A DNA stretch of 64,000 bases from positions 2,604,001-2,668,000 of the forward strand of contig CP036163.1 of the NCBI GenBank assembly GCA_019056595.1. The letters run 5' to 3'. Shown here one piece after another: positions 43,700 to 51,372 of this stretch. The notes beneath the pieces were generated by a model. That model was not told where the DNA came from. It did not search any database and saw only the letters and a program-made list of their open reading frames with translations. How positions within the stretch are numbered: the first letter of the stretch is position 1; every line of letters begins with the position of its first letter. The position numbers and the translations under genes were made by a program. This DNA comes from Pectobacterium atrosepticum (GTDB taxonomy: Bacteria; Pseudomonadota; Gammaproteobacteria; Enterobacterales; Enterobacteriaceae).

Positions 43700-44329
43700 A
43701 TGCTTTGGTCATTTATTGCTGTGCTTTTTTCTGGTTGGTTGTACGTAGACGCCAGCTATCGTGGTCCAACGTGGCAGCGTTGGTTATTCAAACCGGTCAC
43801 GATGCTACTGCTGCTAGCGCTAGCATGGCAGATGCCGCTGCTTGGCGTGCCAGGCTATCTGATTGTTCTGGGGTTACTGGCAACGCTGGTTGCAGACACG
43901 CTACTGTTGCTCCCGACTCAGCGCCTGCTTTACGCGTTCGGTGCCTATTTCATCTCCCATCTGCTGTACACCATTAGCTTTTTTACCGGACAAATCACGC
44001 TCACGTTCTTCTGGCCACTGGCACTAACGCTCGTCATTTTGGCCGCGATCCTGATCGCCATCATCTGGGGACGATTGGACGCACAGCGCTGGCCCGCCTG
44101 CGCGTTTATCATCATGACGACGCTGATGGTCTGGATTGCAGGTGAACGGTATTTTGCGCTGGGGACAAATGCGAACTTCTCCTTGCTGACGGGCACCGTA
44201 CTGCTGTTTATCGCCCATGCAGCCTGGCTGATTCACCATTATCGTTTCCCGTTCCGCGCCCATCAGGCGATTGTGGCCGCGGGCTATTTTGGCGGTCATT
44301 TCCTGATCGTTCGCTCCCTGTATTTCTAA
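43700..44329 (+). CDS. yhhN: YhhN family membrane protein (TMEM86-like)
   Basis: 209 residues with about eight hydrophobic segments and few charges. YhhN/TMEM86 family; eukaryotic members are lysoplasmalogenases, while the bacterial role is not settled. Conserved Asp and His residues appear in '[15 protein letters not shown]' (about 58-72) and '[15 protein letters not shown]' (about 81-95). AAAAGGACACGCT precedes ATG 43700. Ends 'LIVRSLYF'. Confidence 0.85.
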
Positions 44330-46877: not shown

Positions 46878-46896
46878 TAACGCACTGAGTAACTCT

Positions 46897-47022
46897 TATA
46901 CTCTAAATAATTCGAGTTGCAGGCAGGCGGCAATCGCACGAATCCCCTGGAGCTTACACGAGTAAGTGACTGGGGTGAGTAAGAGAAGCCAACGCACCTG
47001 CGGCTTGAAGTATGACGAGTAT
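46897..47022. repeat. ERIC repeat (enterobacterial intergenic consensus)
   Basis: 126 bases. Contains GAATCCCCTGGAGCTTACA and AGTAAGTGACTGGGGTGAG, close to the two conserved ERIC cores used for ERIC-PCR, then CCAACGCACCTGCGGCTTG and AAGTATGACGAGTAT. The ends TATACTC / GAGTATC are inverted. Length agrees with the 127-base ERIC. The right end touches the tusA stop codon (TGA at 47024-47022), so transcription of tusA runs into the element. Confidence 0.92.
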
Positions 47023-47267: not shown

Positions 47268-47444
47268 CAACGTTCTCAGTGCTGGAATCAAAAAACTGCC
47301 TTAGTTTACGCGGAGGATTCCCCTACGCAAGCGACGACAACGTTTGCGCATAAAACAACCATCCTTTCTCGGCAAAACACATTGCATTGGCGAAACAATT
47401 GCGTATTATGCCGCCGCGTTGCAGCATAAATCTGCACGTTATCC

Positions 47445-47476
47445 CTTGGGTTCCCTAACCCCAATAACCAAAAAGG
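47445..47476 (+). promoter_or_regulatory. preQ1-I-type riboswitch ahead of yhhQ
   Basis: Seven bases before the yhhQ start the sequence has TTGGG (47446-47450) pairing with CCCAA (47460-47464), a loop TTCCCTAAC, then an A-rich tail TAACCAAAAAGG that ends in the ribosome site AAGG. The same order (GGG stem, C-containing loop, AACCCCA with the ligand-pairing C, A-rich tail ending in GG of the Shine-Dalgarno) occurs in the Thermoanaerobacter tengcongensis preQ1 aptamer as I remember it. Folding of CC in the loop onto GG of the ribosome site would turn translation off with ligand. The gene controlled imports queuosine precursors, which fits. Confidence 0.8.
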
Positions 47477-47483
47477 TCACATT

Positions 47484-48161
47484 ATGTATCGTTTTACTCC
47501 CCAGCAGCGGCTTACGGCGCTGCTCTGGCTATCGTTGTTCCATGTGCTGATCATTACGTCGAGTAATTATCTGGTTCAGCTCCCAGTATTGATTTTCGGT
47601 TTTCATACCACCTGGGGCGCGTTTACCTTTCCGTTTATTTTTCTGGCAACTGACCTGACAGTCCGAGTTTTCGGTGCGCCGCTGGCGCGTCGTATCATCC
47701 TGACCGTGATGGTACCTGCGCTGGTGATTTCCTATCTGGTTTCGTCACTGTTTTATCAGGGCGCATGGCAGTCGTTCGGGGCCTTAAGCCAGGTGAATAT
47801 CGTCGTGGCGCGTATCGCCTGCGCCAGCTTCATGGCGTATGTTCTTGGCCAGATTCTGGATGTTCACGTCTTCAACCGGCTGCGTCAGAAACGCGCGTGG
47901 TGGGTGGCACCCGCCGTTTCAATCGTGTTTGGTAATTTTAGCGATACGCTGGCCTTTTTCTTCATCGCGTTTTACCGCAGCACCGATGCCTTTATGGCGG
48001 CAAACTGGGTTGAAATTGCGATGGTGGATTATGCCTTCAAGTTGCTGATCAGCCTAGCCTTCTTCCTGCCGATGTACGGGGTCATGCTGAACATGGTGCT
48101 CAAACGTCTGAGCGAACAGAAAGGCACTGCCGACTATCACTCCGCCAGCAGCCACAATTAA
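47484..48161 (+). CDS. yhhQ: Queuosine precursor transporter YhhQ
   Basis: 225 residues, vitamin-transport-like (ECF substrate-binding related) inner membrane protein with six helices, for example 'LTALLWLSLFHVLIITSSNYLVQLPV' region (about 9-34). Conserved 'FVFPFIFLATDLTVRVFG'-type segment here reads 'FTFPFIFLATDLTVRVFGAPLARRI' (about 46-71) and a later 'FGNFSDTLAFFFIAF' (about 149-163). In E. coli it takes up preQ0 and preQ1 for queuosine synthesis. AAGG at 47473-47476 is the ribosome site and is part of the aptamer described above. Confidence 0.92.
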   Translation: MYRFTPQQRLTALLWLSLFHVLIITSSNYLVQLPVLIFGFHTTWGAFTFPFIFLATDLTVRVFGAPLARRIILTVMVPALVISYLVSSLFYQGAWQSFGALSQVNIVVARIACASFMAYVLGQILDVHVFNRLRQKRAWWVAPAVSIVFGNFSDTLAFFFIAFYRSTDAFMAANWVEIAMVDYAFKLLISLAFFLPMYGVMLNMVLKRLSEQKGTADYHSASSHN

Positions 48162-48943: not shown

Positions 48944-49377
48944 GTGCTGCTGGCAGCTATCACAATGATGTCAAATTAGATCAGCCATGTGAGAAAATAC
49001 GGAATTAGCCTTCTGAGATATCTACATGGTTAGATAGCACATTGAATTAATTAAAATAATTATGTTGATAATCAATTGGTTTGCTTACTTTTAGCCCTTT
49101 CGTTGCGCCATTGGTTCTCAGCTCACCTTGCTATCCTTTACACGTACTTTCTTTCTCACAAGAAATTTCGTCAAGGATGCCACATGGAACGTTTTCATCA
49201 TTCTGCCTACCCTCCCAGCTCTATGCCGCACCAACCGCTTGGCATGAACACATTACGGTTAACGTCTAACCCCTGACCAACCGATGTTTTCTACATTTTT
49301 ATCAGCACGGCGTTTTAGCCAACATGGATTGTGGTGTGAGCAGACTCAGACCTAAACCTGAGTATAGGAGTAGATTA
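48944..49377 (+). other. Gap before the DUF2235 effector gene
   Basis: About 430 bases, AT-rich to about 49080. An open frame of 30 codons with AAGGATG ahead of its ATG at 49184 ('MERFHHSAYPP...') is seen, but nothing resembles a known leader or gene, so it is not called. AGGAG at 49367-49371 is the ribosome site of the effector gene. No secretion genes (vgrG, hcp, PAAR) are seen here. Confidence 0.6.
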
Positions 49378-51372
49378 ATGGCAGCAGATCCCTACTGTAT
49401 CCCCTGTGAACACTACGATAATTGGATAGAGATTGAGGTTCGTGATGAAAATAATCGTTCGTTCAAGGGGCTGAAAGCGACACTGACCGACGATACCGGC
49501 AAATCCGAAACGGTTACTCTCAAAGAAGGGCCGGTGTTAGTACACGGTTTTGCCGTTGGCCCGATAGCCGTCAAGCTAGAGACGCTTCCCTGGCTTAAGG
49601 CGGCGCAATCGCGTGAAGTATTGAAGGACGGGCAGAGTGCCGTCCCTGCCTATGTAGCAGAAAAGGCTGGGAACGATGAAACCCCACGTGAACATATTAA
49701 GGCAACTACCGGCGACCTGTGCCTGACCGCACCTGAGCAACCGTTGCCAGAGGCGCATCAGGAAGGGAAAGCCGGTAACGTGCGTTTCTTTACCAAACAT
49801 TCCTACGTTATCGAGGTAAAAGGCTACCAGCTCAACGTATTGCGCATCGGTGTATTCTTCGATGGCACGGGGAATAACACCTATAATGCCGAGTCTGGTC
49901 TTAAACAAGTGGAGCAATGGCTGGCTGAAACCTGCTCCGATCCGGCGCAGCGGGAGAAAGAGCTGCGTGGCTGCCAGATGGGGCGGCTCCCGGTTGGGGA
50001 TAGTGCCGCGAATGATAAAACCAATATCTGGAAACTCTATGAGCAATTTAAAGTCGGTGGCGAAACGTTAAGTGCTCATGCTTATATCAGCGGAATTGGG
50101 ACGCTCAATCCCGTCGCAGGGAAAGAGGGGCTGGAATACCGATCGGACAATATGCTGACAAAAGGGCTGGACCTCGATTTTGGTGGTGAGAATACCTCAA
50201 TCGTTGGCAAGGTGAATCAGGCCTGTGAGCAGGAAATTGTCGCTGCGGTCAAACGTGATTTAAGGGAGGCATTACCTAACATCGACTGCATTCATCGCAT
50301 TGTATTCGATGTGTTTGGCTTTAGCCGCGGGGCGGCGGCGGCACGCCATTTTGTCAATGTCATCGACCAGAAAGCCGATCACCCGTTGGTGCAGGCGATC
50401 GCCAATACGCCCACTATCCGTCTTAAGGCTGGGTTTGACTGGGCCAATAGGGACGATGTGCGTATCACGTTTGTCGGGATTTTTGACACGGTCGCTTCAT
50501 CGTACCACCCCAGTCTCAATATCCGCTTGCAGGATGATTGTGCCGAACGAGTGCTACATCTGACGGCGCTGGATGAGGTGCGAAAACACTTCCCCTTAAC
50601 GCGCATCACTCCTACAGCGATAGGCACCAGCATTCCGCCACACTTTACCGAGCTGGCGCTGCCGGGCGCGCATTCGGATCTTGGCGGCGGCTATTACAGC
50701 CGCTGGAGCCTGTCTAATCCGAACAGCGATCCGGCGCTGACTGAGTGCCTCGAACTGGAACGCTTTATGAGTGAAGACGCAGCCTCCACGCCGGATACAG
50801 AAAGCCGCGCCTATCGTCAGGCCCGCGCCTATGCCGAGGAAAAAATTGCGCAGGGCTGGGTCGGACGCCTTCACCCGCATTTGCTGCACGCTGCCACACC
50901 ACCCGTGGGGGCGATCAGTTTGATCCCCTATTCGTTTATCCGACGGCGTGGCAAGGATGATTTGTGGCCGAAAAAGGCCGTGTATGTGGAGGTGGTGATG
51001 AGCCGCGTGGTGGAGGGAGAGTATTCGCGTATTCCGCTACATATGATGGTGGAAGCGGGTCGAGCTGCTGGAGTGCCGTTTAAGGTGTGGGATAAAACAA
51101 TCAGTGCGCATAGGCTTGAATCTGGCGCAGTCAAACTGCCAGCGATCAATCTAACTAAATTAGATGAGATGTGGGCATTCGCGGCCAACGAACCGGGGGT
51201 GGTGAAAAATCTGAGCCAGCAGCTCTCTGCGGAGGTTTATCGGGCACTGCGCCGCGATTATGTGCACCGCAGCGCCAGCAATCAGGGTATCGCCAGCCCG
51301 GCGAATATCAGTAAACAGGAAACCACCGTGAGCAAGGAACGGCGGCATGTGATAGGCAATCAGGAGGTATGA
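49378..51372 (+). CDS. DUF2235 alpha/beta hydrolase, T6SS Tle1-like lipase
   Basis: 664 residues from ATG 49378 (AGGAG seven bases upstream; an open frame reaches 49324). Residues 1-160 form a Cys-containing beta-rich N-terminal part ('ADPYCIPCEHYDNWIEIEVRDE' in part) seen in type VI secretion lipases. The DUF2235 core begins 'RIGVFFDGTGNNTYN' (about 157), with nucleophile Ser316 in GFSRG, 'VGIFDTVAS' (acid) and 'PGAHSDLGGGY' (His). This set is that of Tle1-type phospholipases, which attack membranes of rival bacteria. No signal peptide. Immediately followed, with overlap, by a lipoprotein gene of the expected immunity type. Substrate is inferred, and no secretion apparatus lies in the window. 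Confidence 0.85.
   Translation: MAADPYCIPCEHYDNWIEIEVRDENNRSFKGLKATLTDDTGKSETVTLKEGPVLVHGFAVGPIAVKLETLPWLKAAQSREVLKDGQSAVPAYVAEKAGNDETPREHIKATTGDLCLTAPEQPLPEAHQEGKAGNVRFFTKHSYVIEVKGYQLNVLRIGVFFDGTGNNTYNAESGLKQVEQWLAETCSDPAQREKELRGCQMGRLPVGDSAANDKTNIWKLYEQFKVGGETLSAHAYISGIGTLNPVAGKEGLEYRSDNMLTKGLDLDFGGENTSIVGKVNQACEQEIVAAVKRDLREALPNIDCIHRIVFDVFGFSRGAAAARHFVNVIDQKADHPLVQAIANTPTIRLKAGFDWANRDDVRITFVGIFDTVASSYHPSLNIRLQDDCAERVLHLTALDEVRKHFPLTRITPTAIGTSIPPHFTELALPGAHSDLGGGYYSRWSLSNPNSDPALTECLELERFMSEDAASTPDTESRAYRQARAYAEEKIAQGWVGRLHPHLLHAATPPVGAISLIPYSFIRRRGKDDLWPKKAVYVEVVMSRVVEGEYSRIPLHMMVEAGRAAGVPFKVWDKTISAHRLESGAVKLPAINLTKLDEMWAFAANEPGVVKNLSQQLSAEVYRALRRDYVHRSASNQGIASPANISKQETTVSKERRHVIGNQEV

Follow-up and report, generated by a model that had tools for sequence, protein, structure and literature searches.

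The 31-base element upstream of yhhQ in the analysed stretch of Pectobacterium atrosepticum DNA (the window, 64,000 nt) is very probably a preQ1-I type III riboswitch that controls translation of that gene. It is very probably the Pectobacterium orthologue of the solved Escherichia coli yhhQ switch, and thus an already known, ordinary element. Sequence, position, conservation, stem covariation and gene context were observed directly here; the ligand, its contacts and the repression are those described for the orthologue in E. coli, and we infer by analogy that they are the same in this organism.

Architecture and gene context of the element

Read directly from the sequence, the element occupies positions 47446–47476 of the + strand and reads UUGGG-UUCCCUAAC-CCCAA-UAACC-AAAAAGG, followed by a gap of 7 nt to the yhhQ ATG (Table 1). 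Several features place it in the type III subtype. Three G-C pairs close P1 around a pyrimidine-rich 9-nt loop that starts with UU (47448–47462, GGG-UUCCCUAAC-CCC), and an AC motif puts the specificity C next to P1 (A47458, C47459). The tail ends in AAGG, which is the Shine-Dalgarno sequence and could pair with the loop CCU (CCU/AGG), yhhQ lies downstream in a gamma-proteobacterial host, and P1 covaries at pairs 2, 4 and 5 by a statistic that ignores kinship.

A preliminary description had recognised a preQ1-I-like aptamer at this place, which family conservation and the E. coli match bear out and for which preQ1-I-III is the sharper name. It had also taken the tail for the yhhQ ribosome site, in agreement with the AAAAAGG Shine-Dalgarno at 47470–47476, and had correctly seen a queuosine precursor transporter gene seven bases downstream (NF008406; ATG at 47484). 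The end of its interval, 47445–47476, stands, and its start is one base early. The idea that the element is something new finds no support, since the subtype has been published upstream of E. coli yhhQ.

Table 1. Features of the yhhQ leader and gene in the window, with the basis of each assignment.
Feature	Coordinates	Strand	Basis and remarks
Putative PurR operator, PurR-box-like site ACGACAACGTTTGCGC	47334..47349	+	tusA-yhhQ intergenic region; 13/16 agreement with the PurR consensus
Candidate yhhQ promoter -10 box, TATTAT	47404..47409	+	putative; poor -35
P1 5' strand UUGGG	47446..47450	+	47450 corresponds to G5 of the E. coli structure, the pocket-floor G (PMC10622847)
Loop UUCCCUAAC	47451..47459	+	UU, minor-groove recognition; CCCU, anti-Shine-Dalgarno; A47457; A47458, equivalent to A13; C47459, specificity base; predicted base roles from PMC10622847
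P1 3' strand CCCAA	47460..47464	+	sequence and family comparison
Variable L3 linker UAACC	47465..47469	+	length varies widely among relatives
A-rich tail and Shine-Dalgarno AAAAAGG	47470..47476	+	predicted roles, assigned from the equivalent positions of the E. coli co-crystal structure
yhhQ, 7-cyano-7-deazaguanine/7-aminomethyl-7-deazaguanine transporter, 225 aa	47484..48161	+	NF008406, E 2.3e-112; PF02592

The YhhQ product scores 374 bits against NF008406 (cut-off 252), and a sequence search for a solved structure of it returned none at E ≤ 0.001. Upstream of yhhQ lies the divergent tusA with zntA beyond it, and dcrB follows downstream, a gene order that is identical in E. coli. Moreover, QueC, QueF and Tgt are all present in the genome with scores above cut-off, so that preQ1 should be made and used in this organism.

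Further observations were made in the surroundings of these genes. A 124-bp imperfect inverted repeat (46896–47019) between zntA and tusA has at least 40 dispersed copies in the genome that are 83–100% identical (scoring covered 40 of 212 candidates, and all 40 matched). Its match to Rfam RF02818 V_AS5 (33.7 bits) is below the cut-off of 96, and perhaps indicates that a repeat element underlies this Rfam family. A YhhN family protein of 209 aa (43700–44329; PF07947, E 2.1e-43) has no NCBIfam match. A 682-aa ORF (49324–51372) matches PF09994, the Tle1-like catalytic domain of T6SS phospholipase effectors (E 7.6e-19), and is followed by a 236-aa ORF.

Relation to the E. coli yhhQ riboswitch and choice of ligand

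The preQ1-I-III subtype and its 293 sequences are attributed to McCown et al. 2014 in PMC10622847 and PMC11625349. For E. coli yhhQ, PMC10622847 describes a 2.30 Å co-crystal structure, reporter assays and switching in vivo, as well as binding of preQ1 with a KD of 57.9 nM by ITC. In that structure, C14 (C15 in the full-length RNA) reads the Watson-Crick face of the ligand, the Shine-Dalgarno A27 touches the ligand, and the pseudoknot pairs are U11-A28, C10-G29 and C9-G30; the linker is described as variable in length and sequence. The same source reports preQ1 binding, by ITC and in-line probing, for type III elements of Enterobacter cloacae and Shigella dysenteriae, which we liken to the window element by the subtype given there and not by sequence. 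PMC5372724 lists yhhQ both among the genes with preQ1 riboswitches and as a member of the PurR regulon. We found no paper on a preQ1 riboswitch in Pectobacterium among the open-access papers searched.

The E. coli element among our genomes (L001) has a linker, GGUUAAUC, identical to the one printed in PMC10622847. It shares with the window element the downstream gene, the flanking zntA, tusA and dcrB, the GGG/CCC stem core, the loop UUCCCU-N-AC and a tail ending in AAGG. The two loops are identical at 8 of 9 positions, and the window element has every base to which a function is ascribed in E. coli, save that A47457 replaces C12. The window element differs in having 5 rather than 6 pairs in P1 (the 6 being deduced from L001 and the paper's linker), a linker of 5 nt instead of 8 nt, an A where E. 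coli has C at loop position 12, and 7 nt instead of 6 nt between GG and ATG. The type II element of Thermoanaerobacter tengcongensis and the type I elements (RF00522) share with it the alpha preQ1 site and an H-type pseudoknot but, unlike type III, have larger loops with purines and bury the Shine-Dalgarno sequence partially or indirectly.

The substitution at position 12 bears on the identity of the ligand. It lies beside the methylamine contact and could be read, together with the preference of YhhQ for preQ0 and an earlier in-line study that pointed to preQ0 (PMC10622847 reports both), as a sign that the element senses preQ0, the preferred cargo of the transporter, or another purine instead of preQ1. 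We consider this very unlikely, given that in E. coli the position-12 contact is made by the backbone and not by the base, and that the published affinity of the E. coli RNA for preQ1 is some 130–138 times that for preQ0.

Conservation in Enterobacteriaceae and across Gammaproteobacteria

Of 119 Enterobacteriaceae genomes, 77 encode YhhQ, and the leader region was taken from 74 of these, two partial matches and one match with stops being left out. One of the 74 regions, L033, is too short to place the start; with E. coli (L001) added, 74 leaders were examined. The motif with its A-run and GG is present in 71 of the 74 leaders at a linker of up to 60 nt, and in 72 once the linker limit is lifted, which adds L059, with a long linker and its core ~96 nt upstream. 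The type III element is absent from the remaining two, L073 and L075. When no base was fixed and the core was sought within 110 nt of the start, 67 of the 74 leaders matched without any difference, 4 with one and 1 with two, and the best matches in L073 and L075 had 8 and 9 differences, respectively.

Across the 72 core-bearing leaders, 13 of the 15 core positions are invariant, among them those of the unpaired UUCCCU and of the specificity C; in the AC motif, C is found in all 72 and A in 70. Most family elements have the loop TTCCCTCAC (66/71), and the form of the window, TTCCCTAAC with A at position 12, occurs in 3/71. Between CCC and the A-run the 71 elements differ freely, with 4 to 46 nt in this stretch, and the GG-to-ATG spacing is 6–10 nt, 7 nt being the commonest (35/71). 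The exact 31-mer is present in 13 named records among the genome contigs searched, all of them Pectobacterium or Brenneria. It should be noted that L072, L091, L094 and L095 carry an extra C on the 3' side of the core, and these five C in a row make the P1 register ambiguous, so that one more base may belong to the loop.

At the level of the class, the core followed by AAAAGG was found in 7 of 369 genomes, as against none for the reversed control, and all six exact matches outside this genome lie 6–10 nt before a YhhQ homologue with 55–63% identity. YhhQ itself is encoded in 18 of the 369 genomes: this one, 13 with close orthologues (L096–L108) and 4 with distant ones (L109–L112). Eight of the 13 close orthologues, which come from other families, have the element within 150 nt upstream, six of them in exact form and two, from one genus, with a stem that reads GAG/CUC instead of GGG/CCC (L101:1448–1479 and L106:2137–2168). 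No element was found within 150 nt in the other five (L096, L098, L099, L104 and L108), nor within 150 nt of the match in any of the four distant homologues. L104 has an RF00522 match of 51.9 bits; yhhQ is separated from it by a 157-aa ORF, which we take to resemble QueF.

Covariation and folding of the stem

The P1 stem was analysed in 77 distinct elements by pair-by-pair shuffling, the statistics of which ignore kinship. Pairs 1 and 3, UUCCC and the last loop C are constant in this set because the search expression fixed them. Pair 2 is GC in 75 of the 77 elements (six of these 75 were found by a pattern fixing the pair) and AU in 2, a compensatory change seen in one genus, and like pairs 4 and 5 it exceeds all 1000 shuffles. 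Standard pairs occur at pair 4 in 71/77 elements, compared to 65.7 by shuffling, and at pair 5 in 40/77, compared to 24.9, and in neither case did any of 1000 shuffles reach the observed value. Pair 4 is usually UA, with AU, CG and UG each found twice. The outermost pair 6, by contrast, is unsupported (24/77 vs 27.7 by shuffling). Within the family only (66 of 71 sequences, linker ≤20 nt), covariation was weak: 5 of 500 shuffles reached its score, and controls slid by +2 and +3 scored higher, and relatives from other families were therefore added. Since the P2 loop bases and the GG are invariant, covariation is silent on P2; the predicted P2 pseudoknot draws its support from conservation and, by analogy, from the published E. 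coli structure.

Thermodynamic folding gave no significant stability (z = 0.29; 118 of 200 shuffles at least as stable), which is no surprise for a stem of 5 bp when the folding program leaves pseudoknots out of its model, and we rejected it as support. Because that program sees mainly the 5-bp hairpin, one could regard the conserved leader as a strong ribosome-binding site combined with a translation-tuning hairpin, devoid of ligand sensing. The core, however, is nearly invariant while the adjoining linker varies freely, and a plain hairpin has no need of an unpaired UUCCCU or of a specificity C. As the E. coli orthologue moreover binds preQ1 and switches (PMC10622847), such a leader is extremely improbable, and the riboswitch remains our preferred reading.

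Pattern and covariance model searches

The 15-base core GGGTTCCCTNACCCC occurs a single time without mismatch in the window. Allowing up to three mismatches gave 3 matches where 2.77 were expected, so loose matches are at the level of chance and the exact match alone stands out. Core and AAAAGG tail together occur once in the 5.04 Mb genome, and the reversed-pattern control gave 0.

A covariance model, R1, was built from 34 leaders with the window element among the training sequences, and as a training member this element scores 50.2 bits. Scanning the class with R1 gave matches in 9 of 369 genomes at E ≤ 0.01, and the pattern search and the R1 scan together found a single type III element in the genome of the window. 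Two R1 matches were rejected as chance: that of L120 (26.2 bits) falls within an ORF of 516 aa on the opposite strand and that of L121 (25 bits) within a same-strand ORF of 307 aa, and both ORFs were judged not to be yhhQ from their letters alone. The GAG/CUC elements L101 and L106 score 23–24 bits with R1, no better than these chance matches, and were missed in the class scan. A chance similarity before yhhQ, which the two other three-mismatch core matches in the window (as expected) and the two weak R1 matches of 25–26 bits in ORFs unrelated to yhhQ might bring to mind, has a negligible probability and is already refuted, given 50.2 bits for the window element (a training member) vs about 25 for chance matches and a core before yhhQ in 72/74 family leaders.

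The Rfam model RF00522 (PreQ1, Rfam 15; gathering cut-off 39 bits) matched nothing in the window stretch or in the genome. It likewise gave no match to the E. coli yhhQ element at E up to 10, and matched none of 10 motif-bearing loci, the E. coli locus included; it was positive for the B. subtilis control and for L104. The preliminary description had named this model as one of its checks, and a poor covariance score, together with the lack of a preQ1-dependent structure change, as grounds for refutation. The score is indeed poor, but the refutation does not follow, because the E. coli element escapes this model too and its silence is therefore uninformative. We rejected RF00522 as a deciding test for this reason, and its miss appears best explained as a gap in Rfam 15 for the type III subtype.

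Proposed mechanism

By analogy with the E. coli structure, the P1 hairpin may form when preQ1 is scarce, leaving the AAAAAGG tail free; the ribosome would then translate yhhQ, and the transporter would import preQ0/preQ1. When preQ1 is plentiful, it would form a Watson-Crick pair with C47459 on a floor made by G47450-C47460. The A-rich tail would dock in the P1 minor groove, where the first Shine-Dalgarno A (47473) would contact the ligand, and A47474, G47475 and G47476 would pair with U47456, C47455 and C47454 in the P2 pseudoknot. Formation of P2 would bury the ribosome site and turn the transporter off. The logic would be that of feedback, a sufficient level of preQ1 calling for no further importer.

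Possible upstream control and linker inserts in relatives

None of 200 single-base shuffles matched the PurR consensus as well as the PurR-box-like site in the tusA-yhhQ intergenic region. A comparable site, with at least 12/16 agreement, is present in 38 of 74 family leaders, and the other 36 are without one. In 52 of 72 family leaders the 80 nt preceding the core contain TATNAT, a raw count without shuffle control, and a consensus promoter scan of the yhhQ upstream region found nothing.

The least expected observation concerns the linkers of relatives; the window element has no such insert. Linkers of 21–46 nt, outer stem letters included, occur in five family members (L034, L041, L051, L058 and L063, the last with a 29-nt linker), and that of L059 is about 70 nt long. 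Folded alone with their tails, the inserts of L059 and L063 form stable hairpins, each more stable than 200 of 200 shuffles. Those of L034, L041 and L051 are modestly stable (35, 20 and 30 of 200 shuffles as good, respectively), and the insert of L058 has no excess stability (104/200). We found no paper on hairpin insertion in preQ1 riboswitch linkers among the open-access papers searched. It is conceivable, albeit unlikely, that the pocket of these relatives closes across a second folded domain, possibly with a signal of its own, and that the switch of the window is under PurR.

Significance

This case serves as a calibration: a 31-base riboswitch was read correctly from raw sequence, and the RF00522 check would have wrongly discarded it. 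R1 recovers the element that Rfam misses. Moreover, the GAG/CUC stem, the A at position 12 and the hairpin-bearing linkers are cheap natural test cases for the published structure. If the unlikely combination outlined above were true, PurR stacked over the switch would place a single transporter under two-tier control by purine and preQ1.
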